The notes under the pieces are model-generated. The model worked only from the letters and a program-made list of their open reading frames with translations. It had not been told where the DNA came from and made no database searches. Below are positions 50,203 through 61,438 of a stretch of 64,000 nt of DNA, in pieces (position 1 is the first letter of the stretch; the number at the start of each line of letters is the position of its first letter). This DNA is from Chryseosolibacter histidinae (GTDB taxonomy: Bacteria > Bacteroidota > Bacteroidia > Cytophagales > Cyclobacteriaceae): NCBI RefSeq assembly GCF_018598225.1, contig NZ_JAHESF010000001.1:124001-188000 (forward strand), written 5' to 3'. Both the position numbers and the translations under genes were made by a program.

Positions 50203-53200
50203 TTACTTTTTTACAAATCGCACAACCTCGTTGCCACGGGCCGAGCTGACCGAAACCAGGTAAACACCGGCGGCATAATCTGCAACGCTGATGATCACAG
50301 CCTGCCCGGATGTTTCCTGTTCATGCACCACCTTGCCGTCATGACTGGTGATGCTGAGGCGTTTGTTCCCTTTTCCGGGCAGTGTGACGCTGATCTTTTC
50401 CGCGGCAGGGTTCGGGTACACCGTCAACAGGGTTGTGGCCTCGGCTGGTAGGGTTGCCGTGATCACAATGGGCATGGCCGCTGACAACTCGCTCGCGCAA
50501 TCATCGGCAGTAACCTTAACCGTATAGATGCCTTGCGCCGATACAGTATGCGAAGCTTGTGTGGCCCCTGCGATGGCAGTACCGTTCAGGAACCACTGGT
50601 TGCCTGAAGCTGCGTTTGATGTGAGCATGGGCGTTTCAGGATTGTCGAGGTTCAGGCTCACTGCAGGCCGGGCAGGTACAATGCAAAAAGTGTGTGTTAC
50701 AGATGTTGCGGCTGTGTACCTGTCATCCCCCGGCTGATTGGCAGTGATGCTTGCCCTTCCTGGCTTCAATAGCGTGACTGTGTTGTTCGTGATGCCGATC
50801 AGCTCCGTGGTGGTGCTGCTGAAGTTTACTGACAGCCCTGACGTAGACGCTGCTGTCAGTGTGAAGGCGTTATCACCGATCTTCTTGTCGGCAAGTGGCA
50901 GGAACGCAATGGTCTGGGTTCCCTTCGATACAACAAGCGCTCGCGGAACATCAGTAGCGGCGAAGTGTGTTTCACTCTGTGGCTGACTGGCAGTGATGGT
51001 GGTAGTACCTGCACCCGTCAGATGGATCTTTCCATCCACGATGGTGGCCACAGCTGCATTGCTGCTGGCATAAAGAACAGGCGTAGCAGTGTTGGTGCTG
51101 GTGGCGCCGGGCGCGAAGTCTGCAACACCGTAAGCAACCGCGGCCAGTGCCGGGAACGTGATCGTTGCATTCACACGGATGGCAGCGCGGGCATCTGCGG
51201 TCTTCTCACTTTCATAACCGAAGGTCTTCACCGCTGAAATGCGATAATAATATAACGTTCCATGTTCAACGCCGGCGTGTGTGTAGGTAGTTGCCGGAGC
51301 ATCGATGGTAGTGAGCAGGGTAGTGGGCTCCGGCGTTGTGCCGCCGTAAACTTTGTACGATGCCAGGTTGATATCTGTGTTCGCATCCCAGGTGAGCACG
51401 ATGTCGTTCACTCCGGCAGTAGCGACCAGATCTACAGGAGTCGCGGGAGCCGCAAGATCCATCGCATTGTGGAAGATCTGGATCTCGTAGTCAGTACCAT
51501 TTGGAACGATCATGTCAGACTTTCCATCACCATCCAGGTCACCAAGCAGCATGACGTAAGAATCTTGAACGTTCCCCATGGAGAAATCGATCTTGGCCCC
51601 GAAGGATTCTGATGTGATACTTCCCGGTGAAGACAGGTTGCGGAACACGGTGATGTCACCATGGGAAGGATGGATGGAGGTAATATCCGGTCTTCCGTCG
51701 CCATCGAGATCATCAACGGCAAGTGTAAAGACAGTATTGGTAGAAGTGATATCGACTTTCGGGGTAAATGAGCTTTCATCGATCGCTCCCGCAGCCCATG
51801 TATTACGAAATATCGAAATAATGGTCTCTCCCAAGGCTCCCACCAGGACGTCTGTCTTTCCATCGCGGTCTATATCAGCAAGGGCCACAGGGGCAGGTGC
51901 GGCTCCCGTACCGAACGCCACGGGTACAAAATCCTCTCGTGAAATATTTCCCATGCTGCTGAGGTTCTGATACACTATTACTGTGCTGGCGTAATAATCC
52001 GTTCCAACGATCTCCGGCTTGCCGTCGCCATTGAGGTCGCCTACCGCTAATCCACGGTATGTGATATGATCACCCACGCGGACATAGCTTCCCAAATCTT
52101 CGGCATTGATATTTCCCGGAGTAGAACGGTTGCGGTGAACAAAGATCCCATCTAGTGTTGAGCGGATAATATCCAGCTTTCCATCAAGGTCGATGTCGGC
52201 GATGCTCAGTCCATTGGTCCATTCAGTATTCAAAACTTCAGGTTCTGCGAAAGAGTCAGCATCGATGCCACCTGCAGATGATGTATTGTGGTAAATGTAC
52301 AGCGTGCTTTCATCGGTTGTTACCACCAGGTCTTTCTTGCCGTCGTTGTCGAGGTCGGCCAGGGCCACATATTGAGGGCCCCATCCGGTACCGATGGTTA
52401 CCGGTTCAGCGAATGAGCTTGCGGTAATACTTCCAGAAGAAGATATGTTTCGGTAGAGGGATACAACAGGCGGGTCAGTGTCATAGGTAGCGGCAACAAG
52501 ATCTGGCTTTCCGTCGCCATCGATATCGCCCATCGTCATGCCCATGGCCCAGGGAGTGTTCGTGATCTTCACGGCCGGATCGAAGGAATTTTCTGTAAAA
52601 TCTTGTCCCATGCCCGCGCCTACCTTGCCGGCAAATGGTATGGGTGACGTTGCTGAACGCCCTGTTTCAATGTTCGTGACAGAGACGGGGCCGTATGTTG
52701 CGCTCACCGATACCGTTACCTTCAGCTGTGTTGCGCTGGCCTGTGTCACTTCAGCCTTGGTGACGCCGAAATGAACAAGGTTATTGGCAGGTGTTGTATT
52801 GAAATTCTCACCTGTAATGGTGACTGATGTTCCCGCCACGGCCGAGCCAGGTGCTACTGCTGTGATGACAGTGCCGGGAAGCACATTAGGTGTCACTGCT
52901 ATTTCCGGACTGAAAGGGCTTTTGTTTCCGTAAGTGTCTACGGCAACCACCTTGATATAGTATGTAGTGCCATTCAAAAACAATCCTTCTCCCGGACCTG
53001 TCATTGTAAAGCTGTCTCCTGTGGCTTCATATGCCGCCATCAATTGCTCGTCTCCGGGTGTTGTGCCGCCATAGACGACGTAGGAGTAAAGGTCTTCTTC
53101 TGTGTTCGGGGTTAACCGGATCGTGACGATCGCATCACCACCGGTAGCCGTTACGTTTTGCGGCGTAGCGGGCGCTGTGAAATCAACGGTGTTACGGAAT

Positions 53201-56200
53201 CCGGATACGTTGTGTCCATACTGGCTTACCCACAGCAGGTCTGGCTGTCCGTCGTTATCCACATCACTGAGGGCAATTGCCGAGGGGCCGTTATTACCTG
53301 TTTCGAAATCCACGTAACGGAAAGAATTATTGTTTATCGTTCCCGGCTGAGAGGTATTCCGGAAGGCTCTCATCAAATAATAGTTAACATTGAAGCTCAC
53401 AACGAGATCCTGCCTGCCATCGCCATCAATATCGCCAATGCCGATGTCGCTGGGATAGTCGTCTACTGGCAAATCTATGCCGGCTGCGAAAGAGTTTGTG
53501 GTAAGACTTCCCTGCGAGGCGGTGTTGCGGAATACCACCGCTCTTCGATTGTTGTAGCTGATCACGGCAACATCCTGCTTCCCGTCACGGTCGAGGTCAC
53601 CGGCAACGAGTCCTGACGCCCGGGGTACATTGAAGCTGGTCCGTGCTGCAAAAGATGTGTTGCCAATGCTTCCTGGTGTAGCAGTATTGCGGTACACAGA
53701 GAACGAATTGCCATGGGCCACCGCCAGGTCAAGGGCACCGTCGCCATCCAGGTCGGTAAGCGTGGCATCCAGGGGCTCGCCTCCGGGAACAAGGCTTACA
53801 CCATATTCGAAATCACCTGCTGTCATGCTGCCTGGTGAGGTCATATTTCTGAATACAGCAACATCAAAATTTCCCAACCGGTGCACCACGACGATATCAC
53901 GTTTTCCATCGCCGTCTACGTCGCCAACAGCAAGCGCCGTGGCAGGTGATCCGGTATCAATGGTTACAGGTGCTGCGAAAGAAGCAGCGGTAAGCTCTCC
54001 TGCTGTGGCTGTGTTGCGGTAGAGGTACATCAGGTGGATGGCATCCAGGTGTACTACAATGAGATCCTGCTTTCCGTCATTGTCAAGGTCTGCGAGCGCT
54101 GCCGCCACCGGGTGGTCGCCTGTGCTCATCTCCACCGGAGCAGCAAATGAATCATCTGAGACGGTGCCCGTAACCGCCGTGTTGCGATACAGCGAAACTG
54201 AGTTCCCATCATAATTCACCACTGCCATATCGGATTTCCCATCACCATCGATATCACCGGTCACGACAGCAACGGGCGCTGATCCTACATTAAGATCGGC
54301 CATGGGACCGAAAGTATGGCTGTTAAAATTCGCATTCTGGTCGCCTCCGAAAGTTGGCGCGAAAGACGTGGGAGAGCTTCCTGTCAGTCCTGTGGTTGTA
54401 TTCAATACTGAGATGGACGCATAGGTTGCTCCCGCCGGAACAGTGACGGTGAGCTGCGTAGCGCTCGCTGATGTCACGGTTGCCCTGGTGGCGCCGAAGT
54501 TTACCACGTTATTGCCGGGCGTCGCTCCGAAATGTGCGCCGGTAATGGTTACCGCGGTTCCGATATTGCCTGTAGAAGGCGTTACCTGTGTGATGGAAGG
54601 TACCTCGATGTTGACCGGTATTGACGTGATCTCTGAAGAAGGATCACTTACGTTGCCAAGGTTGTCCGTAGCGGTTACCCGGTAATAATAGGTTGTTCCG
54701 TTGACAAGCCCTGTATGGGCATAAAGCGTTTGAGGATACTCGATGGTGGCCAGCAGTGTACTGGCGCCGGATGATGTCCCGCCGTACACATTGTAAGATG
54801 CTATATCACTCTCCGGACCAGGTTGCCATGACACGGTGTTTTTGGCATTGCCGGGCACAGCCCTCACCGCAGCGATCGTGGGAGGGGTGAAATCCATGTC
54901 GTTCCTGTAAATGACAAAGTCATTGGAGCTCCATTGCGATATGGCAATATCGGGAGCTCCGTCTCCGTTCAGATCACCGATGTCCATCACACCTGATTTT
55001 GAGGTGGCGGCAACATCCTGGCGTTCCTGGAACGAACCTGCGGAGATGCTTCCGGCAACTGACTTGTTCCTGTAAATGGACAGGGTGTAAGTGTGGCTGG
55101 TATTGTCGCCGGTCGTAACCACCATATCGGGCTTTCCATCGCCGTCGAGGTCGGCCACGCCAACTTTATCAGGCGCTAATGGTGCGGTGCTGAAATCCGT
55201 AGCGGCAAAAGAGGCTGCTACGATACTCCCTGCTGAAGACGTATTGCGGAAAATGGTAACCTTTTTACCTTGTTCGCTGGCCGTGACAAGGTCCGTTTTG
55301 CCATCGCCATCCACGTCTGCGGTCACCAGTCCACGGACCGCCACAGGCGAGGTGATACTCACATTGACCTTGGCGTCAAAGGATGCAGCGGTAACACTTC
55401 CGGGAGAAGATATATTACGGAATACAGAATAGAAATTCTCGGTGTTGCTGGCGGCGATCAGGTCTGGCTTTCCGTCGCCATCGAGATCGCCGAGTGCCAG
55501 GCTGGTTATTTCGGCGCCGAAGCCACCGATCGATGCAAAATCGAACGTCATTGAACCTGGCAACGATGTATTTCTGCAAACGGTGATCCTGTCGGAATAA
55601 TAGCCGTCGCTGATCACCACATCTTTGAGGCCGTCACCATCGATATCGGCTACGGCCATCGCTGAGATAGGCCAGGTATTGACATCAAAGTAGCTCAAGG
55701 TAAATGAATTGATGCTGATGCTATTGCCTGTATTGCGAAGCACCAGGAATCCATCATACCATCCTCCTACAGCGATCACAATGTCCTGCCTGCCATCGCC
55801 ATCGATGTCGTCGATCACGATCTGGTTGGACGATACACCGTCCTGCGCGTAGTCAAACACAACGGGGGCGCTGAATGCCGAAGCGGTCAGGTCACCACTT
55901 GCGGACGTGTTACGGTACAGGAGGATCTTGCCGTGTAATCCTACAACCAGGTCCGGTTTGCCATCGTCATCAAGATCGCCGATGGCGGTCGATTGCGCAA
56001 AATTACTCGGATAGTTCATACGCAGGCTTGCATTATAGCTTTCTGGCGCAAAATCCCTTCCTGTGCCGGCCATGATCCTGACCGCAAAGGGATAAGGCGA
56101 TCTGGCTGACAACCCGTTGGCGAGGTTCGTCACCGTTACAGGCTGATAGGAGGCGCCTGAGGGAACCGTCACCGTAAGCTGCGTGGCACTGGCAGCCGTT

Positions 56201-58089
56201 ACAGCAGCGCGCGTGGCACCAAAGTAAACGTTGTTCTGTGAGGCTGTGGTATTGAAGTTCATTCCGGTAATGGTAACCGCGCTCCCGACGCGGGCCCAAG
56301 CCGGCGAGATGGAGGCAACGGCGGGCAGCGCAGGCGCAACGACGGGTGTAACGGTAACATCTGCTGTAGGTGAGCTTTCATTTCCCGATGCATCGACAGC
56401 CGTGAGCCGGTAGTAGTACACAACGTTGTTAGACAGTCCTGTATGCCGGTAGCTGTTGCCCGGCGCATTGACCGTTGCCAGCAATGCGGTAGGATTGGGT
56501 GTGGTACCTCCGTAGATTTTATATGAAGCAATGTCACTTTCTGCATTGGCATTCCACACCACGGCGCTCTGTTGGTTTCCAGCGGACGCGCGCAATCCGG
56601 AAGGAACTGCCGGTGCGACAAAATCAAGCACATTGCGGAAAAGTGTTACGCGATTTATGTCCAGCGCAGCGATGTCGGGCTGGCCGTCATTGTCGATATT
56701 GGCAACCGCCACGGAATAATTGGCATTCCTTGCGGGAAGCGTTACAGCACTTGAAAAAGAACCTGTGCTAAGGCTTCCGGAAGAAGATTTGTTCTGAAAC
56801 AGCGAGACGGTGCCAGTATTATCATTAGGATTTGTGTTCGCCGTCACGATATCCGGTTTACCATCTCCGTTGAGGTCGCTGATGGCGATATAGCGTGGCT
56901 CAGTGGCCACCGGCAGATCTGTACGGGTATCAAAGACAATATTTCCAAGGGTGGAGGCATTGTGCAGGATCGACACAGCCTCTCCGCTTTGTCCGACGAT
57001 CACGTCAGTCTTGCCATCTCCATCGAGATCAGCGGTCTTTACGTCGTACGCGTCACCGGGAATGGATGTGTCGCTCGCGTTGTCGAATGAAATATTGCCG
57101 GGAGAAGATGTGTTGATCCGGTAGGCAACGTCGTTGGTGCCATAGTTGGCAACGATCATATCAGGCTTGCCATCGCCGTTCATATCATCAAGCGCCAACG
57201 CATTAGCGCCGCCCATACCGAAGTCCACGGGAGCTGCCAGCGAGTTTACATCAATGACGTTCATAGTAGTAGCGGTGTTCCTGTAAACCGAGACAGAAGC
57301 GGCCCAGGAATTGACGACGACCACATCGAGCCTTCCGTCACGGTCCACATCCTGAACATCAACATCACTCGGATGGGAACCGGTAGTAAAGTCAGTGCGC
57401 TCAAATTTTTGCGGCCACCATTCGGAGCTTCCAATAGTGATCTTGTTGGTAAAAATGGATAAAGAATTCGCCAGGTAATTGGCGACAAGTATATCCAGGT
57501 CTCCATCATTATCGATGTCCGCTAAGGTTACGGCGCGGGGGCCATCGCTGGAAGAAAGCTCGATGGGCGTCGCGAACGTGTTTGTTCCTGTGGTCGACGT
57601 GTTCTTGTAAAGATAAAGCTTGCCGTTGTACGCGTCTGAGACAACCATATCTGTTTTCAGGTCCTGGCTGAGATCGCCGAATGCTACGCTGTAGCTTTGT
57701 GCGTTCAGCGAGATTGGTGTCGCCGCAACATAGGTGTTGTTATCCAAAGCTCTTGTGCTTCCGCTGCCAAACGTTACATTGAACGGCTGAGGAGACAACG
57801 CACATTGACCTGTATACCACCTGAGAACAGAGATCGGTGCATAGGTAGCTCCGGCAGGCACCTTGACTGTGATGTGCGTGGTGGACACGGAAACAACTTG
57901 TTCTGCGCGTACGGCGCCAAAGTAAATGATCTGATCGGTTAGCTGTGTCCCGAAGCCGCTACCGTTGATGGTCACGGTAGAGCCAACAGCACCCTGCGAT
58001 GGCGTGACGCTTGTGACTACCAGGGGCTGCGCCATACCTCCGGTGGCCAGCAACACAAGCATCAGAAAGACAATTGATAGTTTGTTCAT
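50203..58089 (-). CDS. Giant T9SS-secreted protein: four IPT / 7-bladed FG-GAP propeller / FN3 units
   Basis: 2628 residues. After the signal peptide (1-20) come four near-equal units of about 575 residues: an IPT/TIG domain (near 24, 583, 1156 and 1735), seven FG-GAP/VCBS repeats with calcium-loop motifs such as DLDGDGKPDLVV, and an FN3 domain (near 488, 1065, 1633 and 2210). I count exactly seven FG-GAP repeats in each unit, 28 in all, so each unit should fold as one complete seven-bladed propeller. Bacterial Ig-like domains follow (2300-2540), and residues about 2550-2628 (TVYPNPAAEKISVTLPGKG to VVRFVKK) are a type A T9SS sorting domain. A surface or secreted adhesin-like role is likely. 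The promoter carries a palindrome shared with the 33-residue peptide gene. Confidence 0.92.
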   Translation of the reverse strand: MNKLSIVFLMLVLLATGGMAQPLVVTSVTPSQGAVGSTVTINGSGFGTQLTDQIIYFGAVRAEQVVSVSTTHITVKVPAGATYAPISVLRWYTGQCALSPQPFNVTFGSGSTRALDNNTYVAATPISLNAQSYSVAFGDLSQDLKTDMVVSDAYNGKLYLYKNTSTTGTNTFATPIELSSSDGPRAVTLADIDNDGDLDILVANYLANSLSIFTNKITIGSSEWWPQKFERTDFTTGSHPSDVDVQDVDRDGRLDVVVVNSWAASVSVYRNTATTMNVIDVNSLAAPVDFGMGGANALALDDMNGDGKPDMIVANYGTNDVAYRINTSSPGNISFDNASDTSIPGDAYDVKTADLDGDGKTDVIVGQSGEAVSILHNASTLGNIVFDTRTDLPVATEPRYIAISDLNGDGKPDIVTANTNPNDNTGTVSLFQNKSSSGSLSTGSFSSAVTLPARNANYSVAVANIDNDGQPDIAALDINRVTLFRNVLDFVAPAVPSGLRASAGNQQSAVVWNANAESDIASYKIYGGTTPNPTALLATVNAPGNSYRHTGLSNNVVYYYRLTAVDASGNESSPTADVTVTPVVAPALPAVASISPAWARVGSAVTITGMNFNTTASQNNVYFGATRAAVTAASATQLTVTVPSGASYQPVTVTNLANGLSARSPYPFAVRIMAGTGRDFAPESYNASLRMNYPSNFAQSTAIGDLDDDGKPDLVVGLHGKILLYRNTSASGDLTASAFSAPVVFDYAQDGVSSNQIVIDDIDGDGRQDIVIAVGGWYDGFLVLRNTGNSISINSFTLSYFDVNTWPISAMAVADIDGDGLKDVVISDGYYSDRITVCRNTSLPGSMTFDFASIGGFGAEITSLALGDLDGDGKPDLIAASNTENFYSVFRNISSPGSVTAASFDAKVNVSITSPVAVRGLVTADVDGDGKTDLVTASEQGKKVTIFRNTSSAGSIVAASFAATDFSTAPLAPDKVGVADLDGDGKPDMVVTTGDNTSHTYTLSIYRNKSVAGSISAGSFQERQDVAATSKSGVMDIGDLNGDGAPDIAISQWSSNDFVIYRNDMDFTPPTIAAVRAVPGNAKNTVSWQPGPESDIASYNVYGGTSSGASTLLATIEYPQTLYAHTGLVNGTTYYYRVTATDNLGNVSDPSSEITSIPVNIEVPSITQVTPSTGNIGTAVTITGAHFGATPGNNVVNFGATRATVTSASATQLTVTVPAGATYASISVLNTTTGLTGSSPTSFAPTFGGDQNANFNSHTFGPMADLNVGSAPVAVVTGDIDGDGKSDMAVVNYDGNSVSLYRNTAVTGTVSDDSFAAPVEMSTGDHPVAAALADLDNDGKQDLIVVHLDAIHLMYLYRNTATAGELTAASFAAPVTIDTGSPATALAVGDVDGDGKRDIVVVHRLGNFDVAVFRNMTSPGSMTAGDFEYGVSLVPGGEPLDATLTDLDGDGALDLAVAHGNSFSVYRNTATPGSIGNTSFAARTSFNVPRASGLVAGDLDRDGKQDVAVISYNNRRAVVFRNTASQGSLTTNSFAAGIDLPVDDYPSDIGIGDIDGDGRQDLVVSFNVNYYLMRAFRNTSQPGTINNNSFRYVDFETGNNGPSAIALSDVDNDGQPDLLWVSQYGHNVSGFRNTVDFTAPATPQNVTATGGDAIVTIRLTPNTEEDLYSYVVYGGTTPGDEQLMAAYEATGDSFTMTGPGEGLFLNGTTYYIKVVAVDTYGNKSPFSPEIAVTPNVLPGTVITAVAPGSAVAGTSVTITGENFNTTPANNLVHFGVTKAEVTQASATQLKVTVSVSATYGPVSVTNIETGRSATSPIPFAGKVGAGMGQDFTENSFDPAVKITNTPWAMGMTMGDIDGDGKPDLVAATYDTDPPVVSLYRNISSSGSITASSFAEPVTIGTGWGPQYVALADLDNDGKKDLVVTTDESTLYIYHNTSSAGGIDADSFAEPEVLNTEWTNGLSIADIDLDGKLDIIRSTLDGIFVHRNRSTPGNINAEDLGSYVRVGDHITYRGLAVGDLNGDGKPEIVGTDYYASTVIVYQNLSSMGNISREDFVPVAFGTGAAPAPVALADIDRDGKTDVLVGALGETIISIFRNTWAAGAIDESSFTPKVDITSTNTVFTLAVDDLDGDGRPDITSIHPSHGDITVFRNLSSPGSITSESFGAKIDFSMGNVQDSYVMLLGDLDGDGKSDMIVPNGTDYEIQIFHNAMDLAAPATPVDLVATAGVNDIVLTWDANTDINLASYKVYGGTTPEPTTLLTTIDAPATTYTHAGVEHGTLYYYRISAVKTFGYESEKTADARAAIRVNATITFPALAAVAYGVADFAPGATSTNTATPVLYASSNAAVATIVDGKIHLTGAGTTTITASQPQSETHFAATDVPRALVVSKGTQTIAFLPLADKKIGDNAFTLTAASTSGLSVNFSSTTTELIGITNNTVTLLKPGRASITANQPGDDRYTAATSVTHTFCIVPARPAVSLNLDNPETPMLTSNAASGNQWFLNGTAIAGATQASHTVSAQGIYTVKVTADDCASELSAAMPIVITATLPAEATTLLTVYPNPAAEKISVTLPGKGNKRLSITSHDGKVVHEQETSGQAVIISVADYAAGVYLVSVSSARGNEVVRFVKK

Positions 58090-58118
58090 AAGAATTGGGG
58101 GTTAGCTTATTGCTGGTT

Positions 58119-58168
58119 CAAAAGTATCGTGCGCGTGATCGCTGCATCAATACCTGAGGGCAGGTATT
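58119..58168 (-). promoter_or_regulatory. Promoter and palindromic operator of the giant T9SS protein
   Basis: On the minus strand: palindrome AATACCTG-N4-CAGGTATT (58149-58168), TTG (58148-58150), a 21-base spacer, then TACTTTTG (58119-58126), an exact TAnnTTTG; the start codon is 29 bases on. The same arrangement with the same spacing stands before the peptide gene at 58555-58656. The TACCTG...CAGGTA dyad is of the type bound by NarL-family regulators. Confidence 0.75.
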
Positions 58169-58186
58169 TTGAACCTGAGCGGTGAT

Positions 58187-58332
58187 GGAGTGGTGGAAGT
58201 GTGGGAGCGAAGGATCCCCCTATTAGAAGGTACATAAGGTACGAGGTACGAAATACGAGGTACGATGAATGCAGATCGAGCTGCCGTACCTCGTTCCCGA
58301 TAGCTATCGGGATCGTACCTCGTACCTTGTTT
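58187..58332. repeat. TACGAGG heptamer inverted-repeat element (G) with a C fragment
   Basis: A fragment GTGTGGGAGCGAAGGATCCC (58198-58217) is followed by GTACATAAGGTACGAGGTAC and further TACGARR units (58228-58266). The inverse arm is GTACCTCGTTCCCGATAGC and GATCGTACCTCGTACC (58283-58328). Part of the 888-base spacer 58090-58977, which also holds a terminator, a small gene, two promoters and other repeats listed separately. Confidence 0.8.
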
Positions 58333-58358
58333 ATAACGACTTGGGTATACGCAAATAG

Positions 58359-58390
58359 AAAAAGGCCCTCGTTCTGGAAGAAGGGCCTTT
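58359..58390 (-). terminator. Terminator of the small membrane-peptide transcript
   Basis: On the minus strand AAAGGCCCT pairs with AGGGCCTTT (9-base stem, 12-base loop), continued as TTTCTATTT. It lies about 165 bases after the peptide stop codon, so the transcript would be roughly 320 bases. Confidence 0.75.
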
Positions 58391-58554
58391 CTCTGTAACT
58401 CCATTGGAAAACTAAACTAACTAACTACTTCCAGAACTTCAAGGTTAGTACCGGTGGCAGGGCCATAAAGACGCCCCCGTCTCGTTGCCTGTATGGTTCC
58501 TGCCAAAAACCACAAGTTACTCCGGTACAAGATCGCCTGACCGACGTCAGGTAC

Positions 58555-58656
58555 TCAGGCGAGCACCCGCGTCAGCACCGCCAGCAATGCCAGGAACATC
58601 ATGATGACCAAGGCACTGTAAATTTCTCTCTTTAAATGATTGGATATACTTTTCAT
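58555..58656 (-). CDS. 33-residue single-span membrane peptide
   Basis: Not a family I recognise. The peptide begins MKSISNHLKREIYSA (basic, cytoplasmic) and continues as a hydrophobic span (residues 15-33: LVIMMFLALLAVLTRVLA). It has its own promoter with exact Bacteroidota elements (TTG, 21 bases, TACTTTTG), a start codon about 24 bases after the expected transcription start, and a terminator about 165 bases past the stop; the long 3' part may be a regulatory RNA. The promoter shares a 25-base operator region with the giant T9SS gene. It lies 320 bases before the divergent histidine kinase gene. Confidence 0.65.
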   Translation of the reverse strand: MKSISNHLKREIYSALVIMMFLALLAVLTRVLA

Positions 58657-58686
58657 GGAGTGGTTTGGATTTCGATTCTCAACGAT

Positions 58687-58736
58687 CAAAAGTAGGATGG
58701 GAACGTGACAGGGATCAATACCTGATGGCAGGTATT
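58687..58736 (-). promoter_or_regulatory. Promoter and palindromic operator of the small membrane peptide
   Basis: On the minus strand: AATACCTG-N4-CAGGTATT palindrome (58717-58736), TTG (58716-58718), 21-base spacer, TACTTTTG (58687-58694). Over 58715-58739 it differs by one base in 25 from 58147-58171. Confidence 0.78.
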
Positions 58737-58782
58737 TTGGAGGTGAGGAATTTAGCGTTGTTTTGAGCTTTTAAAAAGGAGT

Positions 58783-58912
58783 AAGAAGTAAGAATTAAGG
58801 AGTAAGTAGAGGGCGTACCGTGCAGCGAAGGGGCTTCTCCTTTACACCCTAAACCGTCATCCTGAGCGGTGGTAGTGTGGTGGGAATGTGGGAGCGAAGG
58901 ATCCCCTGTTCG
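58783..58912. repeat. GGAGTAA heptamer array (H3) and C-type fragment
   Basis: AGGAGTAAGAAGTAAGAATT and AAGGAGTAAG (58785-58806) are the inverse of the CTCCTTA arrays elsewhere. From 58856 a C-type end is present: GTCATCCTGAGCGGTGG, then GTGGGAGCGAAGGATCCCC. It stands between the peptide promoter and the kinase. Confidence 0.7.
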
Positions 58913-58937
58913 AAGATGCAGATGCCGAAGATAATGT

Positions 58938-58945
58938 TAAATTTG
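58938..58945 (+). promoter_or_regulatory. Candidate -7 element for the histidine kinase operon
   Basis: TAAATTTG matches TAnnTTTG and lies 32 bases before the kinase start codon; no TTG is seen at 19-21 bases upstream, and no copy of the palindrome is present here. Confidence 0.4.
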
Positions 58946-58977
58946 AAAAGCTATAACGATGTAAAATCCACGGGTTC

Positions 58978-60816
58978 ATGAAGAAAGTACAGGGCGTTCT
59001 TATTTTTTGCGCGATACTGTTGTGCCGTCATGTGACGTGGGCACAGGCACCGGTGGTAGTAGGGGAGGGCGATGATGATGTGGTGCTGAATCCGCATGCG
59101 TGGTTGTACAAAGATCACCGGGCAGGGCTCGAAGCCATCGACAGGCTGGTGACGTTGCCCGCTTCGGCGTTTGAACGGAATATTTATGAGCAGGAAGTCA
59201 CGTATGGGTTTCTTCAGCCGCGGGGATGGTGCAAGTTCCTGATCAAAAATACGTCCAGCCAGCCCGACTGGATCCTCCGGATACACCAGACACGGCTGGA
59301 TTCCGTGCAGCTCTTTGTGGTGAGGAAAAACGGGGCGCTGGAACGATACCCGCTCACGGGACACTTCCATACCATCAGGCAACGTCCGGTGTACGCCATG
59401 CACTTTGTTTACCGGATCCCCATTGAAAAAGATGAGACCGTTACCTGCTACCTTTATACTCAGCGTAAGCATGGGCGCCATGCCACCATCCTCAACCTGC
59501 AGCGCGAGGGTTACTTCCAAAACTATGAGCACGTGTTCAGCGTTGGCATCGCTTTCATCAGCGGCATGATCCTGCTGGCGGGCCTCATCGGCCTGGTGCT
59601 GTATTTCTTTGTGAGGCAAAAGGTGTACCTCTACTACAGCGTTTATTGCCTGAGCTTTTTTGTGCTGATCATGGTAGACACGGGCTTTGCGCACAGCGTG
59701 ATCTCACACCCGCAGTACCAGGAGGTGATCAACACGTTCACCACCATCTTTTATTACTGGATCTGCGGCTGGCATATCCTGTTCACCATCGAGCTGCTGC
59801 GCATCAAAGATTACCGTTTCAAATCCGTTTACTGGCTTGGATTCACCAGCGGTTGGTTGTTCTGCATCATCTCCATACTGCTGATGATCCCGGCACTGCC
59901 CGACGAGCTTCGCTGGTGGATCTTGCTCTTTTCCTATTACATCGTATTCTTCATGAACGTCTACATCCTGTATGCCATCAGCATCAGCATCGTGAAAGGC
60001 GAGCCCGTGGTCTACTTTTACCTGGCCGGGTTCATGGTAACGCTGATCGTGGCTACCATCCTGGTGCTGGCCGACCTGCAGATCCTCGATGGTGTGAACC
60101 AGAATACGGACATCTACTACTTCACACCTTTGGTGGAGATCCTCTTCATGGTGGTGGGATTGGGCATCCATTTCTCCCGCAATGTCAAGGAACGCTTCAG
60201 GGTGCAGCTCGCCCTCAACCAGACGCAGAACCAGATCATCACCATCCAGGAAGATGAGCGCCGCCGCATTGCCCAGGACCTTCATGACGACGTGGGCAAC
60301 TCCCTGGCCGCTGTCAAGAACATGGTGATCCAGAAGCGCGAGTCCGTGGCCGTGGAAAAAGAGATCGACAACCTCATCGGTACCATCCGCAACATCAGCC
60401 ACAATCTGATGCCGGTAGATTTCAACGAATTCAACCTGCACGACATCATCGGCCATACGGTGAACAAGTTCAAAGACCATCCGTCGGTAAATCTCGAGTT
60501 CGATTATACGGGAGAGCCCGTCAAGATCACACCGCTTACCGAACTCGTTATCTTTCGCATCATCAACGAGGTCATCAACAACATCCTGAAACATTCGCGC
60601 GCCACCACAGCGTTCATCCAGCTCATCTACCAGAAAGAGACCCTGGTGGTGACGGCTGAAGACAACGGCATCGGCATGGAAAAATTAAAGGCTGGCGAAG
60701 GCATCGGCATGAGAAGCATCCGGCTGCGGGCAGCGTACATCAATGCTCAGCTGAATATAGAAAGCGACGACAAAGGCACACTCATCATTCTTGAAGTTCC
60801 CTATGAGACCATCTGA
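58978..60816 (+). CDS. Sensor histidine kinase, 7TM-DISM type with HisKA_3 core
   Basis: 612 residues: signal peptide (1-22), a periplasmic DISMED2-type beta domain (about 35-180, YGFLQPRGWCKFLIKNTS), seven transmembrane helices (about 185-400), a short coiled coil, then a NarL/DegS-class kinase. ERRRIAQDLHDDVGNSLAAV contains the phospho-acceptor H436. The ATPase domain has the N box (NEVINNILKHS) and G boxes (DNGIGMEK, GEGIGMRSI). It is translationally coupled to the response regulator: the two genes overlap by 14 bases. DISM sensors often detect carbohydrates or other envelope ligands; no ligand can be named. Confidence 0.93.
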   Translation: MKKVQGVLIFCAILLCRHVTWAQAPVVVGEGDDDVVLNPHAWLYKDHRAGLEAIDRLVTLPASAFERNIYEQEVTYGFLQPRGWCKFLIKNTSSQPDWILRIHQTRLDSVQLFVVRKNGALERYPLTGHFHTIRQRPVYAMHFVYRIPIEKDETVTCYLYTQRKHGRHATILNLQREGYFQNYEHVFSVGIAFISGMILLAGLIGLVLYFFVRQKVYLYYSVYCLSFFVLIMVDTGFAHSVISHPQYQEVINTFTTIFYYWICGWHILFTIELLRIKDYRFKSVYWLGFTSGWLFCIISILLMIPALPDELRWWILLFSYYIVFFMNVYILYAISISIVKGEPVVYFYLAGFMVTLIVATILVLADLQILDGVNQNTDIYYFTPLVEILFMVVGLGIHFSRNVKERFRVQLALNQTQNQIITIQEDERRRIAQDLHDDVGNSLAAVKNMVIQKRESVAVEKEIDNLIGTIRNISHNLMPVDFNEFNLHDIIGHTVNKFKDHPSVNLEFDYTGEPVKITPLTELVIFRIINEVINNILKHSRATTAFIQLIYQKETLVVTAEDNGIGMEKLKAGEGIGMRSIRLRAAYINAQLNIESDDKGTLIILEVPYETI

Positions 60817-61438
60817 CGATACCATCAAAGTGATCATTGTTGACGATCACCGCCTCTTCAACGACGGCCTGAACGCCATGTTACGATCGGAACCTGAAAT
60901 AGAGGTGCTGGCCCAGGTGTACGACAGCCGCGAAGCCGAGCACAAGATAGCCGAGCTCAAACCCGACGTGGTGCTCGTGGACTTCAACATGCCCCACATC
61001 AACGGCATCGACCTCACCAAACAGCTTACGGCAAAGCGGGGAGATACAAAGGTGCTCATCCTGAGCATGTACAACGAGGAGATGTACATCGAGAGCTTCA
61101 GGAAAGCCGGCAGCAGGGGATATCTTTTTAAAACCGCCTCGGTAGGTGAAGTGGTGTCGGCCATCCGCAAGGTCCATGATGGCGACCTGCATTTTCCGGC
61201 CACGTATACCAAAAGCAACCACGCCGATGACCTTTTCCTCAAAAAGCTGAAGCTCTCCTCCCGCGAGATCGAAGTGATCAAGCTGGTCAAGGCCGGCCTC
61301 AAAACAAAGGAGATTGCCGAAAAACTCAACATCTCATTCTACACTGCCGAAACCCACCGCAAGAACATCAAGCTGAAGATCGGCGTAGAAGGTGAAGCTG
61401 CGTTTCTCAGGTTTATCTATAGTAGTGAGCTTGAATAG
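60803..61438 (+). CDS. NarL/LuxR family response regulator
   Basis: 211 residues. A receiver domain (about 8-125: IIVDDHRLFNDG, acceptor D60 in VVLVDFNMPHING, Lys in YLFKTAS) is followed by a LuxR-type helix-turn-helix (about 150-205: LSSREIEVIKLVKAGLKTKE, then IAEKLNISFYTAETH). The ATG at 60803 overlaps the kinase end by 14 bases. Family knowledge predicts binding of short dyads with TAC...GTA ends; two AATACCTG-N4-CAGGTATT sites next to this operon are good candidates. The TAG stop codon is the first three bases of a palindromic repeat. Confidence 0.93.
   Translation: MRPSDDTIKVIIVDDHRLFNDGLNAMLRSEPEIEVLAQVYDSREAEHKIAELKPDVVLVDFNMPHINGIDLTKQLTAKRGDTKVLILSMYNEEMYIESFRKAGSRGYLFKTASVGEVVSAIRKVHDGDLHFPATYTKSNHADDLFLKKLKLSSREIEVIKLVKAGLKTKEIAEKLNISFYTAETHRKNIKLKIGVEGEAAFLRFIYSSELE

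Follow-up and report, generated by a model that had tools for sequence, protein, structure and literature searches.

Among the described systems closest to the locus analysed here, the E. coli regulator NarL is associated with the half-site consensus TACYYMT, and PorX-type regulators are not known to carry a GerE output domain. Bacteroidota encode many 7TMR-DISM kinases as well as many T9SS cargo proteins and, to our knowledge, the pairing of sensors with surface proteins is mostly unknown in this phylum. At the E. coli promoters of ogt and yeaR-yoaG, a NarL/LuxR-type regulator acts through 7-2-7 inverted elements located by the -35 element and, at ogt, NarL acts from the 7-2-7 site II centred at -44.5 (PMC7419079). 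Two-component control tied to type IX secretion is represented by PorX/PorY–SigP of Porphyromonas gingivalis (PMC8265659). A third related case is MgrB, a small membrane peptide that belongs to the regulon of PhoQ/PhoP, the system that it modulates (PMC2789325).

The locus in the 64-kb window (the whole stretch of Chryseosolibacter histidinae DNA that was analysed) resembles the first of these cases in its type of regulator, in its 7-2-7 inverted elements and in the location of the site by the promoter, and it differs from the E. coli NarL systems in its Bacteroidota promoter, its 7TMR-DISM kinase and its predicted targets, which would be T9SS surface proteins. Moreover, its half-site TACCTGA deviates from the E. 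coli NarL consensus at the last two positions. The genes under PorXY control are sigP and those of the secretion machinery, whereas cargo proteins are the proposed targets here and the regulator belongs to the NarL type. Since this regulator carries a GerE domain, it departs from the PorX-type architecture. The resemblance to MgrB concerns a putative peptide, encoded by a 33-codon ORF known from sequence alone, and no sequence relation to MgrB is claimed. A literature search, judged by title and start of abstract and incomplete in coverage, gave no report of a TACCTG-dyad operator among the matches listed.

We estimate a probability of roughly three in four that the 7TMR-DISM kinase and the NarL-type regulator of this locus control T9SS surface proteins from the dyad operator, with the regulator probably acting as an activator. 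A site that keeps a fixed promoter position and accompanies one gene pair in each of three genomes offers a concrete and cheap test of one sensor–cargo link, and the dyad motif may serve to predict other links of this kind.

Putative operator dyads and promoters between the cargo and kinase genes

The minus-strand gene at 50203–58089 encodes a T9SS cargo protein of 2628 aa with FG-GAP, TIG, fn3 and Por_Secre_tail matches (Pfam; 9.5e-10 for the tail) and an N-terminal signal peptide, MNKLSIVFLMLVLLATGGMAQ, apparent by eye. On the plus strand, a sensor kinase gene (58978–60816; 7TMR-DISMED2, 7TMR-DISM_7TM, HisKA_3 and HATPase_c in Pfam) is overlapped at its 3' end by the gene of a NarL/LuxR-type response regulator (60803–61438), whose Pfam matches are a receiver domain (Response_reg, PF00072, 4e-24) followed by a LuxR-type helix-turn-helix (HTH; GerE, PF00196, 6e-14). 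By sequence, VraR, EvgA and NarL are among its relatives of solved structure (2.7e-20 for E. coli NarL), and the aspartate within its DFNMP motif is presumably the phospho-acceptor.

Two exact copies of the dyad AATACCTG-N4-CAGGTATT, neither assigned to a strand, are found between the cargo and kinase genes: operator 1 at 58149–58168 (AATACCTGAGGGCAGGTATT) and operator 2 at 58717–58736 (AATACCTGATGGCAGGTATT). No third dyad occurs in the window, even at three mismatches, and shuffled windows (n = 100, up to three mismatches) contained a mean of 0.10 sites, none of the 100 having two. The surroundings are nearly identical, with a single differing position between 58146–58171 and 58714–58739. On the minus strand, the edge of each dyad overlaps a TTG and TACTTTTG begins 21 nt past this TTG, that is, 22 nt past the dyad. 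The pair of dyads, their near-identity and this spacing had all been claimed in the preliminary description, and each of these statements proved accurate. The window core, TACCTGA-NG-GCAGGTA, has the 7-2-7 geometry with one half off by one base, and two inverted 7-base elements, 2 bp apart, are perfect in two other genomes of the family, G178 and G392 (TACCTGA-CG-TCAGGTA).

It is extremely improbable that the two operators are non-regulatory sequences belonging to a mobile or dispersed repeat, a reading favoured by the 88% likeness of the 34-nt stretch spanning each dyad and by the dispersed GGGAGCGAAGGATCC-type repeats (eight window matches) that flank the operator region. Against it, the flanks of the two operators diverge outside the dyad and a few bases, and the exact 20-mer occurs just twice in the 8.04-Mb genome, as operators 1 and 2, with one further place at one mismatch and four at two mismatches. 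Moreover, orthologous genes in other genera are accompanied by a dyad of the same core and spacing.

In Flavobacterium psychrophilum, the sigma-A -7 consensus is TAnnTTTG, located at -12 to -5 (PMC9723704). In the window, the -7 box TACTTTTG that faces the giant gene is found on the minus strand at 58119–58126, 22 nt past operator 1, and the ATG of this gene lies 29 bases beyond it. A second TACTTTTG box on the same strand, at 58687–58694 and 22 nt past operator 2, faces the 33-codon ORF. On the other side of operator 2, a weaker and possible -7 box, TTGTTTTG (58758–58765, plus strand, 21 nt past the dyad, five of six matches), which was missed in the preliminary description, faces the kinase gene. 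The sequence TATTGAT adjoins the dyad on the side facing the cargo or the peptide at operators 1 and 2 and in G178 and G392.

By the box position in F. psychrophilum (PMC9723704), operators 1 and 2 would be centred at -44.5 and sites with a 21-nt distance at -43.5. Activation is the likelier mode of the regulator at the dyad, as judged from position and by analogy, because a 7-2-7 dyad lies near -44.5, where NarL acts at ogt. Repression could also be exerted from -44.5; in this case, the dimer would cover the -33 region and block RNA polymerase until a signal arrives. We regard such repression as unlikely: the edge of each window dyad does overlap the TTG of the -33 region, as it would require, whereas the tight distance between dyad and box (22, 22 and six times 21 nt at the eight boxed intergenic sites of the family described below) is expected of an activator that touches the polymerase, and NarL is able to activate from -44.5 (PMC7419079).

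In the proposed mechanism, the 7TMR-DISM kinase would sense a cue and phosphorylate the NarL-type regulator, a dimer of which is predicted to bind dyads of the type TACCTGA-N2-TCAGGTA (7-2-7). In the sigma-A promoters of Bacteroidota (TAnnTTTG), these dyads would lie directly against the -33 region, centred near -44.5, and RNA polymerase would most likely be activated from there, as by NarL at E. coli ogt. The predicted targets are the 2628-residue T9SS protein and a short transcript containing the 33-codon ORF, and the kinase operon may be a target of its own product via the other side of operator 2.

Recurrence of the site and gene pair in three genomes

Among 390 genomes of the family, with three candidates scored per genome, close orthologs of the kinase (E ≤ 1e-55) were found in three: the window genome, G178 (53% identical) and G392 (52%). 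All three ortholog loci contain an exact core dyad between the kinase/regulator genes and the gene of a T9SS-tailed protein. In G178, AATACCTGACGTCAGGTAT lies 47 bases downstream of the regulator gene and just upstream of a gene whose 2574-aa product combines seven HYR stretches with a Por_Secre_tail at the Pfam cut-off (27.1 vs 27), and TACCTTTA is found 21 nt past the dyad. In G392, the dyad is situated between the kinase gene and a divergent gene for a 1306-aa Por_Secre_tail protein, with five-of-six boxes at 21 nt on both sides, one of them facing the kinase. A core would fall at random within 1 kb of the pair with a probability of about 8e-4 for G178 and 1e-3 for G392, and the association at the genome level between the 18-base dyad and the kinase ortholog has a hypergeometric P of 6e-4, or 7e-3 without the window genome.

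The G392 site was also reached by a promoter search that used no protein information, in which TACCTG-N4-CAGGTA together with TNNNTTTG at the right distance was sought in the 390 family genomes. This combination occurs in 12 of them; among the nine others that were read (G244 and G308 being left out), seven are coding and those of G392 and G102 are not. The perfect dyad of G392 lies upstream of a gene that proved to be homologous to the window kinase.

The regulators of the window and G392 share a 30-residue HTH segment, LNISFYTAETHRKNIKLKIGVEGEAAFLRF, without any difference, and that of G178 has a similar one. Regarding the cargo proteins, the window giant is 38% identical to the G392 protein over its last 319 aa, and the G178 giant resembles that of the window in the tail region only (25%). 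Since the HTH and the dyad are shared and the likeness of the cargo proteins is found mostly at the tail, the regulator and its site are conserved and it is the displayed part of the cargo that varies. The kinase is absent from the two other genomes of the window's genus and, thus, the module is sporadic. An order-wide kinase search (390 genomes, three candidates each) found, besides the window genome, only three relatives at 36% (G055, G423 and G501), and in G055 the exact core dyad is absent. When the kinase pair served as query for related loci, the sole record was JACPVX010000078.1, from a groundwater Bacteroidetes metagenome-assembled genome, whose contig equals contig C66 of G392 in length.

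The preliminary description had inferred, from proximity and from the TAC...GTA ends of the dyads, that they are controlled by the kinase/regulator pair encoded next to them, and the comparison of sequences supports this proposal, since both other genomes with an ortholog have the dyad beside the pair and a T9SS-tailed gene. The suggested association of the dyad with the kinase pair is drawn from these two genomes beyond the window (orthologs in 3/390).

Distribution of the dyad within the genome and across the family

The core TACCTG-N4-CAGGTA, at up to one mismatch, has 26 matches in the C. histidinae genome, and all of their contexts were read. Four are intergenic, namely operators 1 and 2, a third site on contig C26 (own3, C26:16369) and C34:4147, and 21 of the 26 are inside ORFs, L129 being counted as coding for its open 667-codon frame. 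A further match (own4, C100:205442, L006) is inside a mechanically extended ORF whose true start is uncertain. The preliminary description had named random scatter, or location within genes, as the outcome that would speak against an operator. Boxes at 20–22 nt are present at operators 1 and 2, own3 and own4 and absent from C34:4147 (4/5), vs one of the 21 coding sites (L034).

Own3 precedes the gene of a 1612-aa LRR/PKD protein with a Por_Secre_tail, which is followed by that of a CHAT/TPR protein, and own4 is upstream of the probable gene of a secreted protein that starts at a TTG and matches ankyrin weakly. A scan of the genome for a half-site plus box gave 16 places, 11 of them coding and the rest being operator 1, operator 2 (both sides), own3 and own4. 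Thus, the suggestion that the pair possibly controls more genes across the genome holds to a modest extent, with a good case at own3 and a weaker one at own4; within the proposed mechanism, the LRR/PKD protein of C26 would be a further target of the regulator, and perhaps also the ankyrin-type secreted protein of C100. Another candidate, L047 (C51:7552), has TACTTTTG at the right distance, yet it lies within a 158-aa ORF and was rejected. As a side observation on contig C26, the genes led by own3 (LRR/PKD and TPR-CHAT; L056:8351-16914) have a small lipoprotein gene upstream. This lipoprotein is 35% identical to one encoded behind the cargo gene of G392.

The 18-base dyad ATACCTG-N4-CAGGTAT is found at 37 places in 34 of the 390 genomes, and all 37 were read. 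Nine are intergenic (operators 1 and 2, G178, G392, G337, G085, G102, G258 and G312). A box was scored when at least five of six positions matched TAnnTTTG at 20–22 nt from the dyad, a rule set after operators 1 and 2, own3, own4, G178 and G392 had been seen, G102 being also known earlier. By this rule, boxes are present at eight of the nine intergenic dyads (G312 being the exception) vs none of the 28 inside ORFs (Fisher P 2e-7, partly post hoc); in G065, inside an ORF, a box at 19 nt falls outside the rule. Against the noncoding background of 5.6% for a box on either strand, its presence at six of the seven intergenic dyads outside the window genome has a P of 2e-7, partly post hoc, and of the four places first seen after the rule was fixed (G337, G085, G258 and G312) three have a box (P 7e-4).

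Weaker sites are less regular. Of 17 loci fetched from relatives for the 20-mer at one mismatch, four are intergenic and 13 inside ORFs, with a box at two of the four (both weak) vs one of the 13. In G178, the 15 of 36 core sites that were read include, apart from the dyad next to the regulator gene, two intergenic one-mismatch sites without a box and a coding one with a box. Because weaker sites in relatives and in G178 behave unevenly, only near-perfect dyads are informative. The raw counts at one mismatch, which exceed those of the reversed control, were discarded as evidence, since they largely reflect codon usage (13/17 coding).

Four of the boxed dyads (G085, G337, G102 and G258) are in genomes without a close kinase ortholog and, therefore, another regulator probably can use the site; the dyad is probably not exclusive to kinase pairs of the window type. 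In G085, it precedes, with the same spacing, a gene for a beta-propeller protein of some 3740 aa that bears a T9SS tail (Por_Secre_tail; L164:1-9713, L172:17485-19200), and inspection by eye of ORFs of at least 90 aa, spanning about 10 kb in one direction and 29 kb in the other, revealed no kinase or regulator. In G337, the dyad lies between the genes of a TPR/HisKA_3 kinase and of its GerE regulator (...TVETHRKNI...). The box of G258 faces no ORF of at least 90 aa within the stretch read. Moreover, G392 has a second exact core dyad (contig C26, L104:9530-9545), located where the gene of a TPR/HisKA_3 kinase begins; TACTTTAG lies 21 nt from the dyad, and the GerE regulator of this kinase reads ...TIETHRKNL....

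These places lend weight to a rival reading in which the dyad is a generic operator for several NarL-type regulators with an ETHRKN helix, the neighbouring pair being one of its users or not the main one. The boxed dyads of G085, G337, G102 and G258 favour it, G085 through a giant T9SS gene with no pair recognised nearby, and so do the ETHRKN-type regulators of the TPR/HisKA_3 kinases next to the G337 dyad and the second G392 dyad. We hold this reading to be possible, if the less probable one, and direct control by the neighbouring pair best accounts for the adjacency at all three orthologous loci (3/3). Control of the T9SS genes by the 7TMR-DISM kinase and its regulator is, hence, the interpretation that we prefer. 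We consider it quite doubtful that a family code exists in which TACCTGA dyads, fixed some 44 bp ahead of the start site, are read by NarL-type regulators with an ETHRKN recognition helix, allowing kinases to be matched to giant T9SS proteins by sequence, with the 33-residue membrane peptide, expressed in the window from the same operator, as an MgrB-like brake on the kinase.

The predicted short transcript and the neighbouring repeats

The 33-codon ORF faced by operator 2 (58555–58656, minus strand) would encode a putative peptide with one hydrophobic stretch of membrane-span length, and it is unusually hydrophobic: of 196 small noncoding ATG ORFs, itself among them, 1 attains the same value. 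No homolog of the putative peptide was found in the 58 other relatives searched, and nine fetched loci gave no convincing match either. The preliminary description had the two dyads driving the giant gene and this peptide; the promoter layout is indeed present at both, with the 33-residue peptide as a putative product. An MgrB-like feedback role, should the peptide be real, is a guess made by analogy.

Downstream on the same strand, a GC-rich hairpin followed by a T-rich tract (58357–58394; inverted repeat I3, fold) probably terminates the short transcript that would start at operator 2; it was not called by a simple terminator scan. The fold of the short transcript is slightly more stable than that of shuffled sequences (z -2.41), a margin too small to support a role as a structured RNA, and a search of 57900–59100 against Rfam gave seven matches, every one under its gathering score.

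Two kinds of repeat accompany this region. The dispersed GGGAGCGAAGGATCC-type repeat has eight matches in the window at up to two mismatches, vs 0.16 expected; the copies at 58203–58217 and 58890–58904 flank the operator region, and six more are found elsewhere. Moreover, nested inverted repeats of the GGTACGAGGTACG type, perhaps another dispersed repeat, occupy 58231–58333, between the hairpin and operator 1.
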